Part shown: positions 9,177 through 13,875 of the stretch, piece after piece
Layout: each line of letters starts with the position of its first letter
Position numbering within the stretch: the first letter of the stretch is position 1
DNA from: Vicingaceae bacterium
GTDB taxonomy: Bacteria; Bacteroidota; Bacteroidia; Flavobacteriales_E; Vicingaceae
Assembly (NCBI GenBank): GCA_026003395.1
Contig: BPHE01000022.1
Location: 1-36,004, forward strand
Direction of reading: 5' to 3'
DNA length: 36,004 nucleotides
The notes under the pieces: model-generated
Databases searched by the model: none
What the model saw: the letters and a program-made list of their open reading frames with translations, nothing else
Told to the model about the DNA's origin: nothing
Translations under genes and position numbers: made by a program

Positions 9177-9674
9177 ATGGCGTTATTGGAAAGACCTGTG
9201 AGAATATTGACAGTTTGTTTGGGGAACATATGCCGTTCGCCTATTGCACAGGGTTTGGTCGAACATTTTGCCAATTTGAAAAGTATTCCTGTTGAGGTCG
9301 ATTCTGCCGGTTTGGCCTCATATCATATCGGAGAGCCACCTCACCCACGCAGTTTAAAAGTATGTAAAGAAAGAGGTCTGGATATTTCACACCAAAGAGC
9401 ACGCGCATTCAATACCAAAGATTATGATTATTTTGACTTTATTCTTGCAATGGATAAAGAAAATCTACGCGATCTTAAACGTTTTGCTTCAAATGAAGAA
9501 CAGTTAAAAAAAATCTTTCCGGTCACTCATTGGATATCCAACGGAAAAGAAATAATCGAAGTGCCTGATCCATACTATGGTGATGAAGAAGATTATGAAT
9601 ATGTATACGAATTGCTTGAGAAATCCATCGACCATTTCACTGACTTTCTAAAAAATGAGTATATCAAAAGGTAA
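9177..9674 (+). CDS. Low-molecular-weight protein-tyrosine phosphatase
   Basis: The 165-residue protein has the LMW-PTP P-loop C-x5-R-S as CLGNICRS (Cys14, Arg20, Ser21) and the general-acid loop DPYYG with Asp131, the two defining elements. Cys19, next to the arginine, matches the second cysteine of the loop that can form a protective disulfide. It would hydrolyse phosphotyrosine or phosphoarginine; which one cannot be read from the sequence. It starts 1 base after dnaA and overlaps the methyltransferase by 20 bases. A dnaA-phosphatase-methyltransferase order is, as far as I recall, common in Bacteroidota. Confidence 0.93.
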   Translation: MALLERPVRILTVCLGNICRSPIAQGLVEHFANLKSIPVEVDSAGLASYHIGEPPHPRSLKVCKERGLDISHQRARAFNTKDYDYFDFILAMDKENLRDLKRFASNEEQLKKIFPVTHWISNGKEIIEVPDPYYGDEEDYEYVYELLEKSIDHFTDFLKNEYIKR

Positions 9675-10374
9675 ACTCTATTTGTTGCCTGTTCCTCTGG
9701 GAGAAAATGCGGATCCGGGCATGTTGTCCGTCAATCACCCGGCTATCGTTGGCGCTCTAAAAAAGTTTGTGGTTGAAAACCCCCGGACAGCTCGCAGGTA
9801 TATAAAAAAGATTGTTCCCGAAACAGATTTAGACCAAGTAGAGATGATCTCTACAAATGAAGAAGAGCTTTCTCAAGCCATCAATTGGCTTATGAAAGGA
9901 GAAAATGTCGGATTGATGTCCGAAGCAGGTCTACCTTGTCTGGCAGATCCGGGTAATAGCTTGGTTTTAATGTGTCATCAAAAAAAAATCCAGGTAATTG
10001 CCTTATCTGGTCCATCTTCTGTTTTTATTGCATTGATGCTTTCGGGGTTAAATGGACAGGAATTTACTTTTCATGGTTATTTACCCGCCAAAACCTATGA
10101 ACGAAAGCAAAAAATTAAACAATTGAACGAAATCTGCCATAAAAGCAAGCAGACGCAGGTATTTATAGAAACCCCCTACAGAAATATGACATTATTGAAA
10201 GATCTTTTGATCAATCTTAACAATGATTTATATCTGTCCATATCTTCAAACCTTGGATTGAACGACTCGTTTTCATTGACCTTAACAATTGCAGATTGGA
10301 AAAAAATTCCCGGCGAACTATTAAAATCATGGCTGCATAAAAAACCGGCAGTTTTTTGTTTGGGATATATCTAA
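9655..10374 (+). CDS. RsmI-like SAM-dependent methyltransferase (tetrapyrrole methylase family)
   Basis: The 239-residue protein belongs to the tetrapyrrole methylase fold as used by 16S rRNA methyltransferase RsmI. GLMSEAGLPCLADPGN at about 93-108 corresponds to the ISDAGTPxISDPG motif of RsmI, and ALSGPSSVFIALMLSG (about 120-135) and FHGYLPAK (about 141-148) match the following conserved blocks. The N-terminus (GKLYLLPVPLGENADPGML) is shortened and diverged from RsmI, where LYVVATPIGNLxD is expected, so this is probably the Bacteroidota paralogue rather than RsmI itself. The target is unknown; rRNA is plausible. It overlaps the phosphatase gene and ends the dnaA cluster. Confidence 0.83.
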   Translation: MSISKGKLYLLPVPLGENADPGMLSVNHPAIVGALKKFVVENPRTARRYIKKIVPETDLDQVEMISTNEEELSQAINWLMKGENVGLMSEAGLPCLADPGNSLVLMCHQKKIQVIALSGPSSVFIALMLSGLNGQEFTFHGYLPAKTYERKQKIKQLNEICHKSKQTQVFIETPYRNMTLLKDLLINLNNDLYLSISSNLGLNDSFSLTLTIADWKKIPGELLKSWLHKKPAVFCLGYI

Positions 10375-10435
10375 AAAACTAAATTTTATCCTCTTAAATC
10401 ATTAAAGTATTATTTCAAGCTATTTGTAAAAACAA

Positions 10436-10824
10436 ATGAATGAAATTAACAACCGGGGAGGAGATAAAACTGCCGGAATGTCATTCGTAACTATGTACCC
10501 ACTATACTTGAAAAAATGCCAAAAAAAAGGAAAAAGCAAAGAAGAACCGCATTTGATTATTAAATGGCTTACCGGTTATGATGAAAATATGATTAAAGAA
10601 ATAATTGATAAATATATTACTTTCATCGAATTTTTTGAAAAAGCAATGTCAATCCTTTATATTCTGAAATAACCGTTAGAATCTGTGGACAACGCTTTGA
10701 AGAAAGCTTCAATACCTTAACAAGAAAAGTGCGCTGTTTTGATAAACTTGTCGATGACTTGGCCAAAGGAAAAAATAGACCAAATTCTGAAATGTTAAAC
10801 AACTCACTTTTTGGTTACCAATGA
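10436..10824 (+). pseudogene. DUF2200 family protein, frameshifted
   Basis: The first frame (10436-10672, 78 residues) contains the DUF2200 N-terminal core: MSFVTMYPLYLKKCQKKGK, then IIKWLTGYDEN and FIEFFEKAMS. It then stops. The other half of the family continues in the -1 frame from about 10651: it starts NPLYSEITVRICG, later has VRCFDKLVDDLAKGK, the typical DUF2200 ending, and stops at 10824. The break lies near 10645-10652 (GCAATGTCAATCCT); dropping two bases after ATG would rejoin the frames as Ala-Met-Asn-Pro. The C-terminal part also has unusual substitutions, which favours a decayed gene over a sequencing error. The family function is not known. It follows the methyltransferase by 61 bases. 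Confidence 0.75.
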
Positions 10825-10860
10825 GCGTTGACTGCTGTAAAAATTGCAAAAGGTATTTGA

Positions 10861-11037
10861 TTATTTACTTTCGGCGTGAGTGTACAAATAAATAGAATAT
10901 AAAGATAACAAAATAGTTGCGGTCATTGAAATGGCTGAAACAATCGGACGGTCAAAATTTATATTAATAAAGCTCCATTGAAAAGGAACCAAAAAAACAA
11001 ATGCCAAAATGGCCAATGCTATTACTTTTTTGTTCAT
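10861..11037 (-). CDS. Small two-helix membrane protein (58 residues), unknown
   Basis: A short frame on the minus strand runs from ATG at 11037 to TAA at 10861. The peptide starts MNKKVIALAILAFVFLVPFQ, a lysine-capped hydrophobic helix, passes through a short polar loop FININFDRP (about 23-31) and has a second hydrophobic helix (about 33-52, SAISMTATILLSLYSIYLYT) before the tail HAESK. The positive N-terminus and two helices suggest an inner-membrane hairpin protein with both ends inside. I do not recognise the family. It is divergent to the histidine-rich gene and shares a 93-base intergenic region with it, so the two may be co-regulated. Its membrane-protein-like composition supports a real gene, but there is no homology evidence. 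Confidence 0.5.
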   Translation of the reverse strand: MNKKVIALAILAFVFLVPFQWSFININFDRPIVSAISMTATILLSLYSIYLYTHAESK

Positions 11038-11118
11038 AATAACTAAATTTAGTGCCTGTAAAATTAAAAATTTTCTGTAAAACCAAATTTATTTTCAAAT
11101 TTTTCAGCAAAAAATCTA

Positions 11119-11126
11119 TAATTTTG
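11119..11126 (+). promoter_or_regulatory. Candidate -7 element upstream of the histidine-rich gene
   Basis: TAATTTTG matches the Bacteroidota -7 consensus TAnnTTTG exactly. No TTG is visible at the expected -33 position. If used, transcription would begin around 11131-11134, which would leave a TTG start at 11131 without a leader and favour the GTG at 11146. Confidence 0.35.
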
Positions 11127-11130
11127 GCTT

Positions 11131-11496
11131 TTGAAAAATTTTGATGTGAATCTTTCAAACAAACCATTTTACAGGTCTTTTTTGGGAATCTTCTTTTTGA
11201 TAATTTTAACCGGACACCTTCTTTTGCCCGGCATTCACATTATTCACCATCAAATTCACATCGAAAACCATGATAAGTGTTTAAGTCACAATGATACGCA
11301 TATTCACAATCATGGAGAATTACACTATAGTCATGATTGTCAATGGATAAGCTTAAATGCTTCTTATTCACATGCTCTCGAACATGAAGTAGAAACATAT
11401 GTTACTGTCTCAACCTTAAGAATTAGAATATTCAATAAATTTTTAGACAAATTTTTTCTCTTACCTGGAAATAAATCCCCTCCATTTTTTAAGTAA
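11131..11496 (+). CDS. Histidine-rich exported protein, possible metal binder
   Basis: The frame encodes up to 121 residues. A hydrophobic segment (about 17-33, FLGIFFLIILTGHLLLPG) acts as signal peptide or anchor. The following 55 residues hold about 15 histidines, many spaced one apart (GIHIIHHQIHIENHDKCLSH, then DTHIHNHGELHYSHDC), plus two cysteines. Such density suits Zn2+, Cu or Ni binding outside the cytoplasm. No ATG is available: possible starts are TTG at 11131 or GTG at 11146, and the promoter-like element nearby favours the latter. It lies 123 bases before the TonB-dependent receptor on the same strand. I do not recognise a named family; metal binding is inferred from composition and neighbour. 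Confidence 0.7.
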   Translation: MKNFDVNLSNKPFYRSFLGIFFLIILTGHLLLPGIHIIHHQIHIENHDKCLSHNDTHIHNHGELHYSHDCQWISLNASYSHALEHEVETYVTVSTLRIRIFNKFLDKFFLLPGNKSPPFFK

Positions 11497-11539
11497 TAAT
11501 ATTTCTTGATTTTTTCTTTAAAAAATAATTGATAAGAAT

Positions 11540-11560
11540 CTTAAACCTTAAATCTTAAAG
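11540..11560 (+). repeat. Three tandem CTTAAAN heptads upstream of the TonB receptor
   Basis: The 7-base unit CTTAAA plus one variable base occurs three times without a gap at 11540, 11547 and 11554 (ending C, T and G). The array lies 59 bases before the receptor ATG at 11620. It could be an operator or a repeat-length variation site; AT-richness makes chance possible. Confidence 0.4.
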
Positions 11561-11619
11561 CAGGTAAGGCGTTGCCATTGTTTGATTTAATTATTTTATT
11601 CATCAAAAAAAGTATTGAT

Positions 11620-13875
11620 ATGAAAACTATTGTTAAATATGTTTATTATGTGTTTTTTATTGCATTTCCGGTGATTTTAAATTCTCAAATCTCTTTACAG
11701 GGCAATGTCAAGGGATCCGATGGGTTAACGTTACCCTATGCAAATATCCTTGTTAAAGAAGTAAATAAGGTTTGGGTTGCTGATGATGCCGGTAAATTTG
11801 AAATACAACTCAAACCCGGAATATATACAATTCAATTTTCATACATAGGATATAAACCGTTGAAAATTGTTGTAAAAGCTTTAAACGACACATCTTTAAA
11901 CGAGATTCAACTGCAAACGGCAGTTATAGAGACGCAAGAATTTGTCGTAGAAGAAAGTCAGCAATCGGGAAGAAATTCCATGGCTATTTCAACCCAAAAA
12001 ATTTCTCCTAAAGAACTTTTGTCCTCAGGACAAGACCTGGCCGCTTCATTAAATTATATACCGGGTGTACAGGCAGCTCAATACAGTGGCGGTGTTTTTA
12101 AACCTGTCATAAGAGGAATGCAAGGAAACAGAATGACTGTTTTTGCCCAAAATGTCAGAATCGAAAGTTTGCAAGGCCAGGACGATCATGGACTTTCAAT
12201 CAACAATTGGGCCAACGGTGGTGTTGAAATAATCAAAGGTCCTGCATCATTGATTTACGGACCTGGATCAATGGGAGGGGTGCTAATTTTTCACGACGAC
12301 CTGCCGGCTCCGGTTGGAACAACCAAAGGATTTGTTAATTACCGTTTTTTTACATCTACTCTCGGAAATTCGCTTGTGGCCAATTTCAAACAATCTTTAC
12401 AAAAGTTTCAATACGGCATTTTTGTAACCGGTGATTTGCATAAAGATTTTACACAGGCAGGATTTATCCGGGTACCAAATACCCGTTATCATAATGCATT
12501 TACTTTACTTTGGGCCCAAACCGAATGGAAAAAACACATTTTTCATTTGAGTTACTCATACTTTGTTCAAAATTCAGGTCTTTTGCCCGAAGAGGAGGAA
12601 TTTATTGAAGATCAATATTCCATTCATGAACCATATCAGCAAACTACTCAGCAGATATTTTCTTTGAAACATACATGGATAAACAAAAATTCGATGTGGA
12701 AAAACATCATTGGATTAACTAAAAACAATCGTAAAGAATTTGAAGAAATGCATGAGGATTCAACAGCCATAAATCATGAAGAGCATCATAATGAAGCAAG
12801 CCTTGATTTTGGGACAGATCAAATTTATTGGCAATCGTTTGTCAAAAAAAGTTTCAATAAAAATTCATCTTTTATGGCCGGCACGCAAAATAATTTTTTG
12901 AAATACCAATCAAAAGGCCATGAAAAAATTTTTCCGGACGGAACAAGTGTCAATTTAGGATTTTACTTGTTATATGAATTTGAAAAACAACGTTTGAAAA
13001 CTTCAACCGGTTTGCGAACAGATTATAACATTACTCAATCAATCAATACTTTTGTTGAAGATTCACTCATGTGGACCGGTCAGAAACTAGAATACTTCAA
13101 TTTCCCTGTTTTTTCAATGGGAGTAATTTATAAACTATTAACGAAATGGACGTTGGATTTTTATGCATCCGGAGGATACCGTCCGCCATCATTTACGGAG
13201 TTATGGAGCAATGGAGAACATCACGGGGCATTTCGCTATGAAATTGGAAATGATCAATTAAAACCCGAAAAAAACTTTGAAATATCCTTTGGAAGCACCT
13301 ATGAATCAGAACATATAAAAGCAAGCGGCAATGTATACTACAATCGTATTCTAAATTACATAGATTTAATTCCTCAAGGCATATACATTGAAAGTTTTCC
13401 TGTGTTTGTATACAGTCAATACACTGCTTATATCCGAGGAGTGGAAGGAATGTTTGAATGGCATCCTCATCCGTTCGATTGGCTGCACTTACAAACTTCC
13501 GTGAATATGATTGAAGGGAAAAGTGTGGAAGGCAATTATCTTTATAGAATTCCTCCAATGCGATGGATGAATGAGATAGAAGTAGAAAAAGATTGGGATA
13601 AAACTATCCGGCATGCTTCTTTTGGAGTACAATGGTTGTGGGTCGACCGTCAAAACCGTGTAGGACCAAATGAAACCACAACTCCCGGATACGACCTGCT
13701 GAATGTTTACCTAAAAACTCATTGGAAATTGGCAAACAGATCGTTGTATGTCAATTTAAGAGCCAATAACGTTCTAGACAGAAAATATGTCGATCACCTA
13801 TCTTATTTTAAAAATACCCCCGGATTTTATCAACAAGGTTTTAATATGATGATTGAATTACATTGGGAATTTTAA
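11620..13875 (+). CDS. TonB-dependent outer-membrane receptor, possibly for zinc or another metal
   Basis: I start at the ATG at 11620 (751 residues) because it opens a clean signal peptide MKTIVKYVYYVFFIAFPVIL; an upstream in-frame TTG at 11572 adds 16 unlikely residues. A carboxypeptidase-like beta-sandwich (about 24-115, ending near FVVEES) precedes the plug. The plug contains LLSSGQDLAASLNYIPGVQ, PVIRGMQGNRMTVFAQNVR and VEIIKGPASLIYGPGSMGGV. The rest is a 22-strand barrel ending in the aromatic MIELHWEF. A QDDHGLS segment in the plug and an acidic, His-rich loop (MHEDSTAINHEEHHNEAS) resemble ZnuD-type metal receptors. With the histidine-rich neighbour, metal uptake is likely; zinc is my inference. 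Confidence 0.9.
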   Translation: MKTIVKYVYYVFFIAFPVILNSQISLQGNVKGSDGLTLPYANILVKEVNKVWVADDAGKFEIQLKPGIYTIQFSYIGYKPLKIVVKALNDTSLNEIQLQTAVIETQEFVVEESQQSGRNSMAISTQKISPKELLSSGQDLAASLNYIPGVQAAQYSGGVFKPVIRGMQGNRMTVFAQNVRIESLQGQDDHGLSINNWANGGVEIIKGPASLIYGPGSMGGVLIFHDDLPAPVGTTKGFVNYRFFTSTLGNSLVANFKQSLQKFQYGIFVTGDLHKDFTQAGFIRVPNTRYHNAFTLLWAQTEWKKHIFHLSYSYFVQNSGLLPEEEEFIEDQYSIHEPYQQTTQQIFSLKHTWINKNSMWKNIIGLTKNNRKEFEEMHEDSTAINHEEHHNEASLDFGTDQIYWQSFVKKSFNKNSSFMAGTQNNFLKYQSKGHEKIFPDGTSVNLGFYLLYEFEKQRLKTSTGLRTDYNITQSINTFVEDSLMWTGQKLEYFNFPVFSMGVIYKLLTKWTLDFYASGGYRPPSFTELWSNGEHHGAFRYEIGNDQLKPEKNFEISFGSTYESEHIKASGNVYYNRILNYIDLIPQGIYIESFPVFVYSQYTAYIRGVEGMFEWHPHPFDWLHLQTSVNMIEGKSVEGNYLYRIPPMRWMNEIEVEKDWDKTIRHASFGVQWLWVDRQNRVGPNETTTPGYDLLNVYLKTHWKLANRSLYVNLRANNVLDRKYVDHLSYFKNTPGFYQQGFNMMIELHWEF

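Follow-up and report, generated by a model that had tools for sequence, protein, structure and literature searches.

Genes and features of the locus

The window, by which we mean the whole analysed stretch of 36,004 nucleotides, comes from a Vicingaceae bacterium (Bacteroidota; contig BPHE01000022.1 of assembly GCA_026003395.1). A small histidine-rich ORF is followed there, on the same strand, by the gene of a TonB-dependent receptor, with the following features.

11131..11496, + strand: His-rich ORF, putative leader; 121 aa from TTG, 116 aa if the start is GTG 11146
11278..11340, + strand: probable metal-binding stretch Cys50-X19-Cys70, with HxH at Cys50 +7/+9
11473..11484, + strand: KSPP codons, a variant of the RAPP/RGPP arrest motif, with 3 residues after the motif
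11497..11619, + strand: leader between the small ORF and the receptor ATG, 123 nt, A+T-rich
11620..13875, + strand: ZnuD-like TonB-dependent receptor; its ORF opens at TTG 11572 (11572-13875, 767 aa), with ATG at 11620
12178..12198, + strand: QDDHGLS in the plug, receptor residues 203-209
12772..12801, + strand: NHEEHHNEAS, external-loop insert, receptor residues 401-410
13219..13221, + strand: His550 of the receptor

The preliminary description of this locus had reported a protein of roughly 120 residues with about 15 His and 2 Cys before a TonB receptor, and the ORF indeed encodes 121 residues with 14 His and 2 Cys. This number of His is in clear excess (binomial p(>=14) = 1.9e-6 against a background of 2.46% His in 15 neighbouring ORFs of the window). 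The N-terminal third is hydrophobic, with a maximum of 2.5 over a 15-residue span on the Kyte-Doolittle scale, the only scale used. It is followed by the His/Cys region and then by the C-terminal KSPP with three further residues, and the distance from Cys70 to Lys115 of KSPP is 45 residues. No ATG start is available for the ORF, the options being TTG 11131 or GTG 11146. The small protein, which the preliminary description did not recognise as a named family, has no Pfam or NCBIfam match at E <= 10.

Upstream, about 750 bases at 10375-11130, between the ORF at 9655-10374 and the leader, hold no long ORF and could contain a decayed gene. Right before the TTG start, TAATTTTG at 11119-11126 matches by eye the Bacteroidetes -7 element, whose consensus we take to be TAnnTTTG; the transcript may start at or near the start codon of the small ORF.

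Kinship of the receptor with ZnuD

The only ATG near the start of the receptor ORF is that at 11620, and translation more likely begins there, which leaves a leader of 123 nt after the small ORF. The receptor is complete and carries the Pfam domains Plug, TonB_dep_Rec_b-barrel and an N-terminal CarbopepD_reg_2. Its relatives were collected as a set of 53 receptors (40 places at E <= 1e-70 and 13 down to about 1e-59), 41 of which form the alignment A1. Receptors weaker than about E 1e-59 lie outside this count, and five of them (L037, L040, L042, L043 and L046) also have a leader of the class I type described below; two weak loci from the receptor search of the genome contigs were left unused.

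By the A1 profile, ZnuD of Neisseria meningitidis is the best PDB relative of the receptor clade (208 bits, next 113). A fold search with the AlphaFold2 model of the window receptor (mean pLDDT 83.4, pTM 0.82) placed ZnuD structures at ranks 1-4, with 18-19% identity in the fold alignment. The copper receptor OprC was also among the fold matches and ranks below ZnuD by sequence and fold. The NCBIfam ZnuD model NF038289 was the best model but its cut-off was missed (120 bits vs 950), with a heme model close at 118.6. The window receptor further differs from ZnuD in its added CarbopepD_reg_2 domain.

The zinc site of ZnuD includes His100 and His499 (PMC4557270). These residues were matched in a HMMER alignment, taking the chain numbering to differ by 14 from the published one, a shift deduced from the two His themselves. 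His206 of QDDHGLS, present in 41 of 41 aligned receptors, corresponds to His100, whose acidic neighbour is kept as well; His550, present in 37 of the 41, corresponds to His499, the exceptions being L107 and the three class II receptors L112, L129 and L131. The two motifs singled out earlier, QDDHGLS in the plug and NHEEHHNEAS in an external loop, were both found as described. Since the His206 position is invariant and most members read GDEHGLG, QDDHGLS is the plug signature of the clade and not private to the window receptor. NHEEHHNEAS falls largely within a low-confidence stretch of the model (residues 395-406, pLDDT < 50) between two strands. The clade has such inserts repeatedly at this position: 11 of the 41 receptors (window included) have at least 3 His in the same stretch, comparable to the His-rich clusters in loop 3 of ZnuD. 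Judging from sequence and model, the window receptor is probably a ZnuD-like importer of zinc, or at least of metal.

A probable leader family with a fixed end motif and cysteine distance

Used alone as a query against 60 relatives, the small protein gave nothing above chance level except in the window's own genome (best E elsewhere 0.05). Relatives were therefore sought by scanning upstream of the receptor loci for an ORF of 70-230 aa with [RK][AGS]PP inside its last 16 residues. By this rule, a leader precedes 28 of the 53 related receptors (window included), whereas of 310 further long ORFs in these regions only 1 fits it. The motif is R[AG]PP in 25 of the 28, and RSPP, KGPP (L124) and KSPP (window) once each; it is followed by 2-5 residues and preceded, in 28 of 28, by a Cys at a distance of 43-48 residues. 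In 2000 shuffles of the stretch from position 25 to the motif, this spacing appeared on average in 5.3 and at most in 13 of the 28. The mature part as a whole is poorly conserved (20% mean column identity), and CXXC is present in part of the relatives.

A leave-one-out profile built from the 27 relatives put the window ORF at the top (E 1.1e-4) of the 226 six-frame stretches searched in the window, and its Cys-Cys spacing and HxH position are the same in L125 to L128. The nearest relative of the window locus is L088 (receptor identity 33-35%), whose leader ends in RSPP and has a weak, below-cut-off match to NCBIfam LIC10965 (E 2e-4). At E <= 1e-3 the family profile, A2, has matches in 102 of the 296 genomes examined from the class. 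In the wide set of 90 leaders the motif reads R[AG]PP in 88 (L199 read by eye), RSPP in one and KAPP in one, and Lys-type motifs occur in only 3 of 104 members, namely the window (KSPP), L124 (KGPP) and L217 (KAPP). The Cys spacing is kept in 72 of 75 further members that took no part in profile building, a count that excludes L199, whose motif sits 16 residues from the end.

Gene order beyond the leader and receptor is not common to most loci, and the pair is therefore the unit. At L103 (first seen as L062), an RGPP leader frame has no ATG, GTG or TTG and overlaps the preceding gene; like the window ORF, it suggests that leaders of this kind have weak or unusual starts.

Another 13 receptors of the 53 (14 with L123, added by homology) are preceded by a second type of leader, homologous ORFs of 169-188 aa whose N-terminus is hydrophobic and whose end is of the PP or PPP type, such as PSPPPKSV or TPPTPPPNFI (among them L026/L112, L027/L113, L028/L115, L032/L133, L035/L136, L045/L129 and L071/L114). 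At L112, L129 and L131, which have this type, the receptor has lost the His550 ligand. The second type may be another arrest peptide family with another signal.

The co-occurrence that the preliminary description proposed to check is borne out: the small ORF is linked to the receptor clade from both sides (28 of 53 receptors; 71 of the 90 leaders, see below). The same description had named receptor homologues without any His-rich neighbour as evidence against a pair, and such homologues do exist to some extent: besides the 13 with the other leader type, 12 of 53 have neither type by motif scan, or 10 once L103 (frame) and L123 (homology) are reassigned.

Genes downstream of the leaders

Downstream genes were surveyed for 90 distinct leaders (92 matches minus one duplicate and minus one leader seen in two overlapping loci). 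The next gene encodes an A1-type, ZnuD-like receptor in 71 cases, a porin-like protein marked by 'DSLLLLQ' in 7, a COG0523 GTPase in 3 and another protein in 8; in one case it lies out of view. Two of the COG0523 proteins were searched in Pfam and matched cobW. One was compared with NCBIfam, where its best model was ZigA (540 bits, below the cut-off of 600), which NCBIfam names a zinc metallochaperone. COG0523 proteins have been tied to zinc limitation in other phyla (PMC2770081).

The porin-like proteins follow class I leaders at L162, L165, L181, L196, L197, L198 and L227 and share the repeated start 'DSLLLLQIQ...NPDISVIGDF'; that of L181, the one searched, has no Pfam match. They are candidate zinc-related outer-membrane proteins.

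RNA between the small ORF and the receptor

The 123-nt leader of the window shows no excess structure (z 0.0). Across the family, 91 leaders have lower folding energies than shuffled sequences (mean z -1.74) and are more structured than control gene pairs, for 82 of which the mean z is -0.63 (p 2.7e-7). Base pairing between the end of the small ORF and the start of the receptor, which could unmask that start, does not hold as a general mechanism: only 7 of 91 leaders reach p < 0.05, barely above shuffles. L088 is a clear single case of such pairing.

Possible Zur-like control at loci without a leader

A Fur-family gene adjoins 4 of the 53 receptors, 48 bp upstream at L089 and divergently at L053, L092 and L119, and none of the four has a leader; Pfam FUR was confirmed for the neighbours at L089 and L119. 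The palindrome TTGCAA-N5-TTGCAA, with at most one mismatch, lies at the receptor start in 4 of 53 (L053, L090, L092 and L119), again all leaderless. Exact copies number two in G210 and one in G361, all at the receptor and none elsewhere in their sequence examined. One exact copy lies elsewhere in each of G106 and G060, and none in G067. At L134 a DtxR-type regulator and a ZupT-like ZIP gene stand alongside the receptor. That several leaderless receptors have a Fur-family gene or the palindrome supports a regulatory reading of the leader. We use the label 'Zur-like' on the grounds of Fur-family membership, gene neighbourhood and the palindrome; the literature searched gave no published Bacteroidota Zur motif for comparison. 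TonB receptors of Neisseria are Zur-regulated (PMC6103462).

Across genomes the leader and the Zur-like gene tend to exclude each other: among 296, 20 have both, 82 only the leader, 104 only the Zur-like gene and 90 neither (odds ratio 0.21, p 9e-9, uncorrected for kinship). At a stricter Zur cut-off of 115 bits the counts are 11, 91, 87 and 107 (p 1e-9, likewise uncorrected for kinship). Counted by family, 17 have the leader only, 23 the Zur-like gene only and 20 are mixed, family f53 having both in 6 of 9. A Zur-like gene is thus also present in 20 of the 102 leader-bearing genomes. Well-supported branches of the receptor tree make 3 changes necessary for the Zur-like state.

In the window's genome a single Fur-family gene is present, on a contig other than that of the window, and A3 gives no match at 1e-16. 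Around the locus (10400-11700) the palindrome is limited to position 10413, with 2 mismatches, and we do not count it as a Zur site there. A match at L111 (spacing of 4, one mismatch) lies upstream of a receptor that has a leader and is probably due to chance. Elsewhere in the window's genome TTGCAA-N5-TTGCAA occurs six times, solely in one short stretch of contig C7 (18488-19590 in G000; L231, L235-L239), where the exact TTGCAAGGATTTTGCAA copies, most of them about 155 bases apart, form a repeat array unrelated to the receptor promoter.

From this distribution a wider proposal may be drawn, which we put forward tentatively and at somewhat less than even chances: in many Bacteroidia, Zur would have been replaced by zinc-sensing nascent peptides, an exported arrest-peptide family set singly before zinc-uptake genes (ZnuD-like receptors, ZigA-type GTPases and the porin-like proteins).

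Comparison with known nascent-chain sensors

The closest counterpart is CruR (Bp2923, DUF2946), which lies before the TonB-dependent transporter gene bfrG/crtA in Bordetella pertussis. CruR arrests in vitro; 45 residues separate its CXXC from RAPP, and 3 follow RAPP (PMC9426467; PMC12992588). Like CruR, the window ORF is the first gene before a TonB receptor and has a hydrophobic N-terminus, and its Cys stands about 45 residues before a C-terminal xxPP motif with 3 residues after it. In place of the CXXC and the RAPP of CruR it has Cys-X19-Cys with many His and KSPP, respectively, and its receptor is ZnuD-like, in a zinc, not copper, context. Membership in DUF2946 (Pfam PF11162) was rejected: the window gave no match at E <= 10 and only 1 of 28 relatives matched, below the cut-off, at E 0.095. 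None of 60 related genomes had a match over the cut-off for this domain, as against 1 of 14 control genomes.

RAPP/RGPP leaders with signal sequences are enriched before TonB-dependent receptors in Gram-negative bacteria generally (PMC12992588, EMBO J 2025). These leaders, and with them the Sec/YidC arrest peptides ApdA, ApdP and SecM, are small exported proteins with RAPP or RGPP close to their end whose genes precede the one they regulate, an arrangement that the window ORF resembles. The kind is therefore known. The present analysis adds to it ZnuD-like and ZigA-type proteins as targets, zinc as the proposed signal, an exchange with a Zur-like system and, in the window copy, the variant with Lys. 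In the accessible text of PMC12992588, copper is the only metal assigned to RAPP/RGPP TonB leaders and zinc has 0 occurrences, whereas the window has a zinc context; and R[AG]PP near the C-terminus, by which such leaders are recognised, is absent from the window ORF (KSPP).

CutF of Rhodobacter capsulatus also senses metal as a nascent exported chain, ends in a proline-rich stretch and is encoded before a metal-related gene. It differs in its metal, copper, in activating in excess metal and in its downstream gene, a multicopper oxidase. Some CutF-like proteins have been suggested to bind metals other than copper (PMC9973294). The open literature searched, with most subscription papers and all preprints lying outside it, yielded no zinc-responsive bacterial arrest peptide.

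Proposed mechanism and alternatives

Rather than a metal buffer, the small ORF most likely encodes a leader peptide with a regulatory role, of the type of CruR and the RAPP leaders; with moderate confidence, we propose that this peptide acts as a nascent chain and controls the downstream ZnuD-like receptor. The ribosome exit tunnel holds 30-40 residues. The analysis shows the family, its motif and spacing, its linkage to the receptor gene and the kinship of the receptor; from these we infer the arrest, zinc as its ligand and the direction of the response as follows. The N-terminal hydrophobic segment would bring the nascent chain to the membrane, and the ribosome would pause at the two prolines of the end motif, KSPP here and R[AG]PP in relatives, at which point the Cys/His cluster, about 45 residues back, would stand just outside the tunnel. 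When zinc is scarce, the pause would be long and the receptor expressed; when zinc occupies the cluster, local folding would pull on the chain, end the pause and turn the receptor off. The pause might act on the receptor mRNA by unfolding of the leader or through Rho, and the small protein, once complete, would be no more than a by-product. For this locus, zinc is the metal to which the context points, because ZnuD is the best solved relative of the receptor clade, the positions of His100 and His499 are kept, COG0523 proteins are among the targets (3 of 90), and some leaderless receptors have a Fur-family neighbour or the palindrome and one (L134) a ZIP gene.

The motif of the window argues against this reading, since KSPP is outside the listed RAPP/RGPP set. 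Arg is essential for arrest in ApdP (PMC10951233) and CruR (PMC12992588); RSPP is partially permissive, and KSPP, KAPP and KGPP do not occur in the accessible text of the latter source (PMC12992588). In addition, the window receptor is the longest branch of the receptor tree (2.68), and the locus may therefore be drifting. The lack of an ATG, the absence of excess structure in the window's leader, the scarcity of pairing with the receptor start in the family, the 20 leader-bearing genomes with a Zur-like gene, the distance from ZnuD and the presence of OprC among the fold matches count against the reading too. Because the window copy has KSPP, its own capacity for arrest is uncertain. The copy could then be a decayed leader, formerly an arrest peptide and now without arrest, with the receptor expressed by other means; the missing ATG, the unstructured 123-nt leader and the long receptor branch would fit this as well. 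We consider it unlikely, given that the ORF is intact, that the distance of 45, the 3-residue tail and a His/Cys pattern as in the family are kept, and that L124 and L217, with KGPP and KAPP, retain the spacing.

An improbable alternative is the surface or periplasmic metal buffer of the preliminary description, in which the small protein, as an exported buffer or chaperone, would supply the receptor, or a carrier in the periplasm, with zinc or copper. Its 14 His and 2 Cys after a hydrophobic N-terminus, beside a metal receptor, are what such a role would predict. Yet the mature part is scarcely conserved while the end motif, 2-5 residues from the stop, and the Cys distance are fixed; an RxPP end has no known use in a buffer, and CutF, of similar build, is degraded after export (PMC9973294). 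As the end motif and the fixed Cys distance are needed by a regulatory nascent chain and not by a buffer, we prefer the former. Of the metal capture and import pair proposed earlier, the receptor stands as a probable importer of metal (zinc), and the buffer is not supported.

Least probable, and rather doubtful, is a leader peptide that works as proposed but senses copper, a CruR of Bacteroidota, as its build and spacing, the CXXC of many relatives and OprC among the fold matches might suggest (PMC9426467), because ZnuD ranks above OprC by sequence and fold, the context is ZigA-type, ZIP and Zur-like, and copper-related leaders were not found in Bacteroidota according to the accessible text of PMC12992588.

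Implications of a possible zinc-sensing leader

If the leader peptide indeed responds to zinc, it would be the first zinc-responsive arrest peptide, and its family would form a regulon governed by leader peptides in place of a DNA-binding repressor. As the authors of the CruR study pointed out, neither copper nor zinc has a known riboswitch (PMC9426467); the leader family would fill this gap for zinc. It would also account for the repeated presence, before these receptors, of a small ORF rich in His that belongs to no named family. The zinc reading is directly testable, because the relatives include textbook RGPP members with complete genomes. Zinc supply in a large part of Bacteroidia would then be set by a ribosome-bound protein that is exchangeable with Zur.
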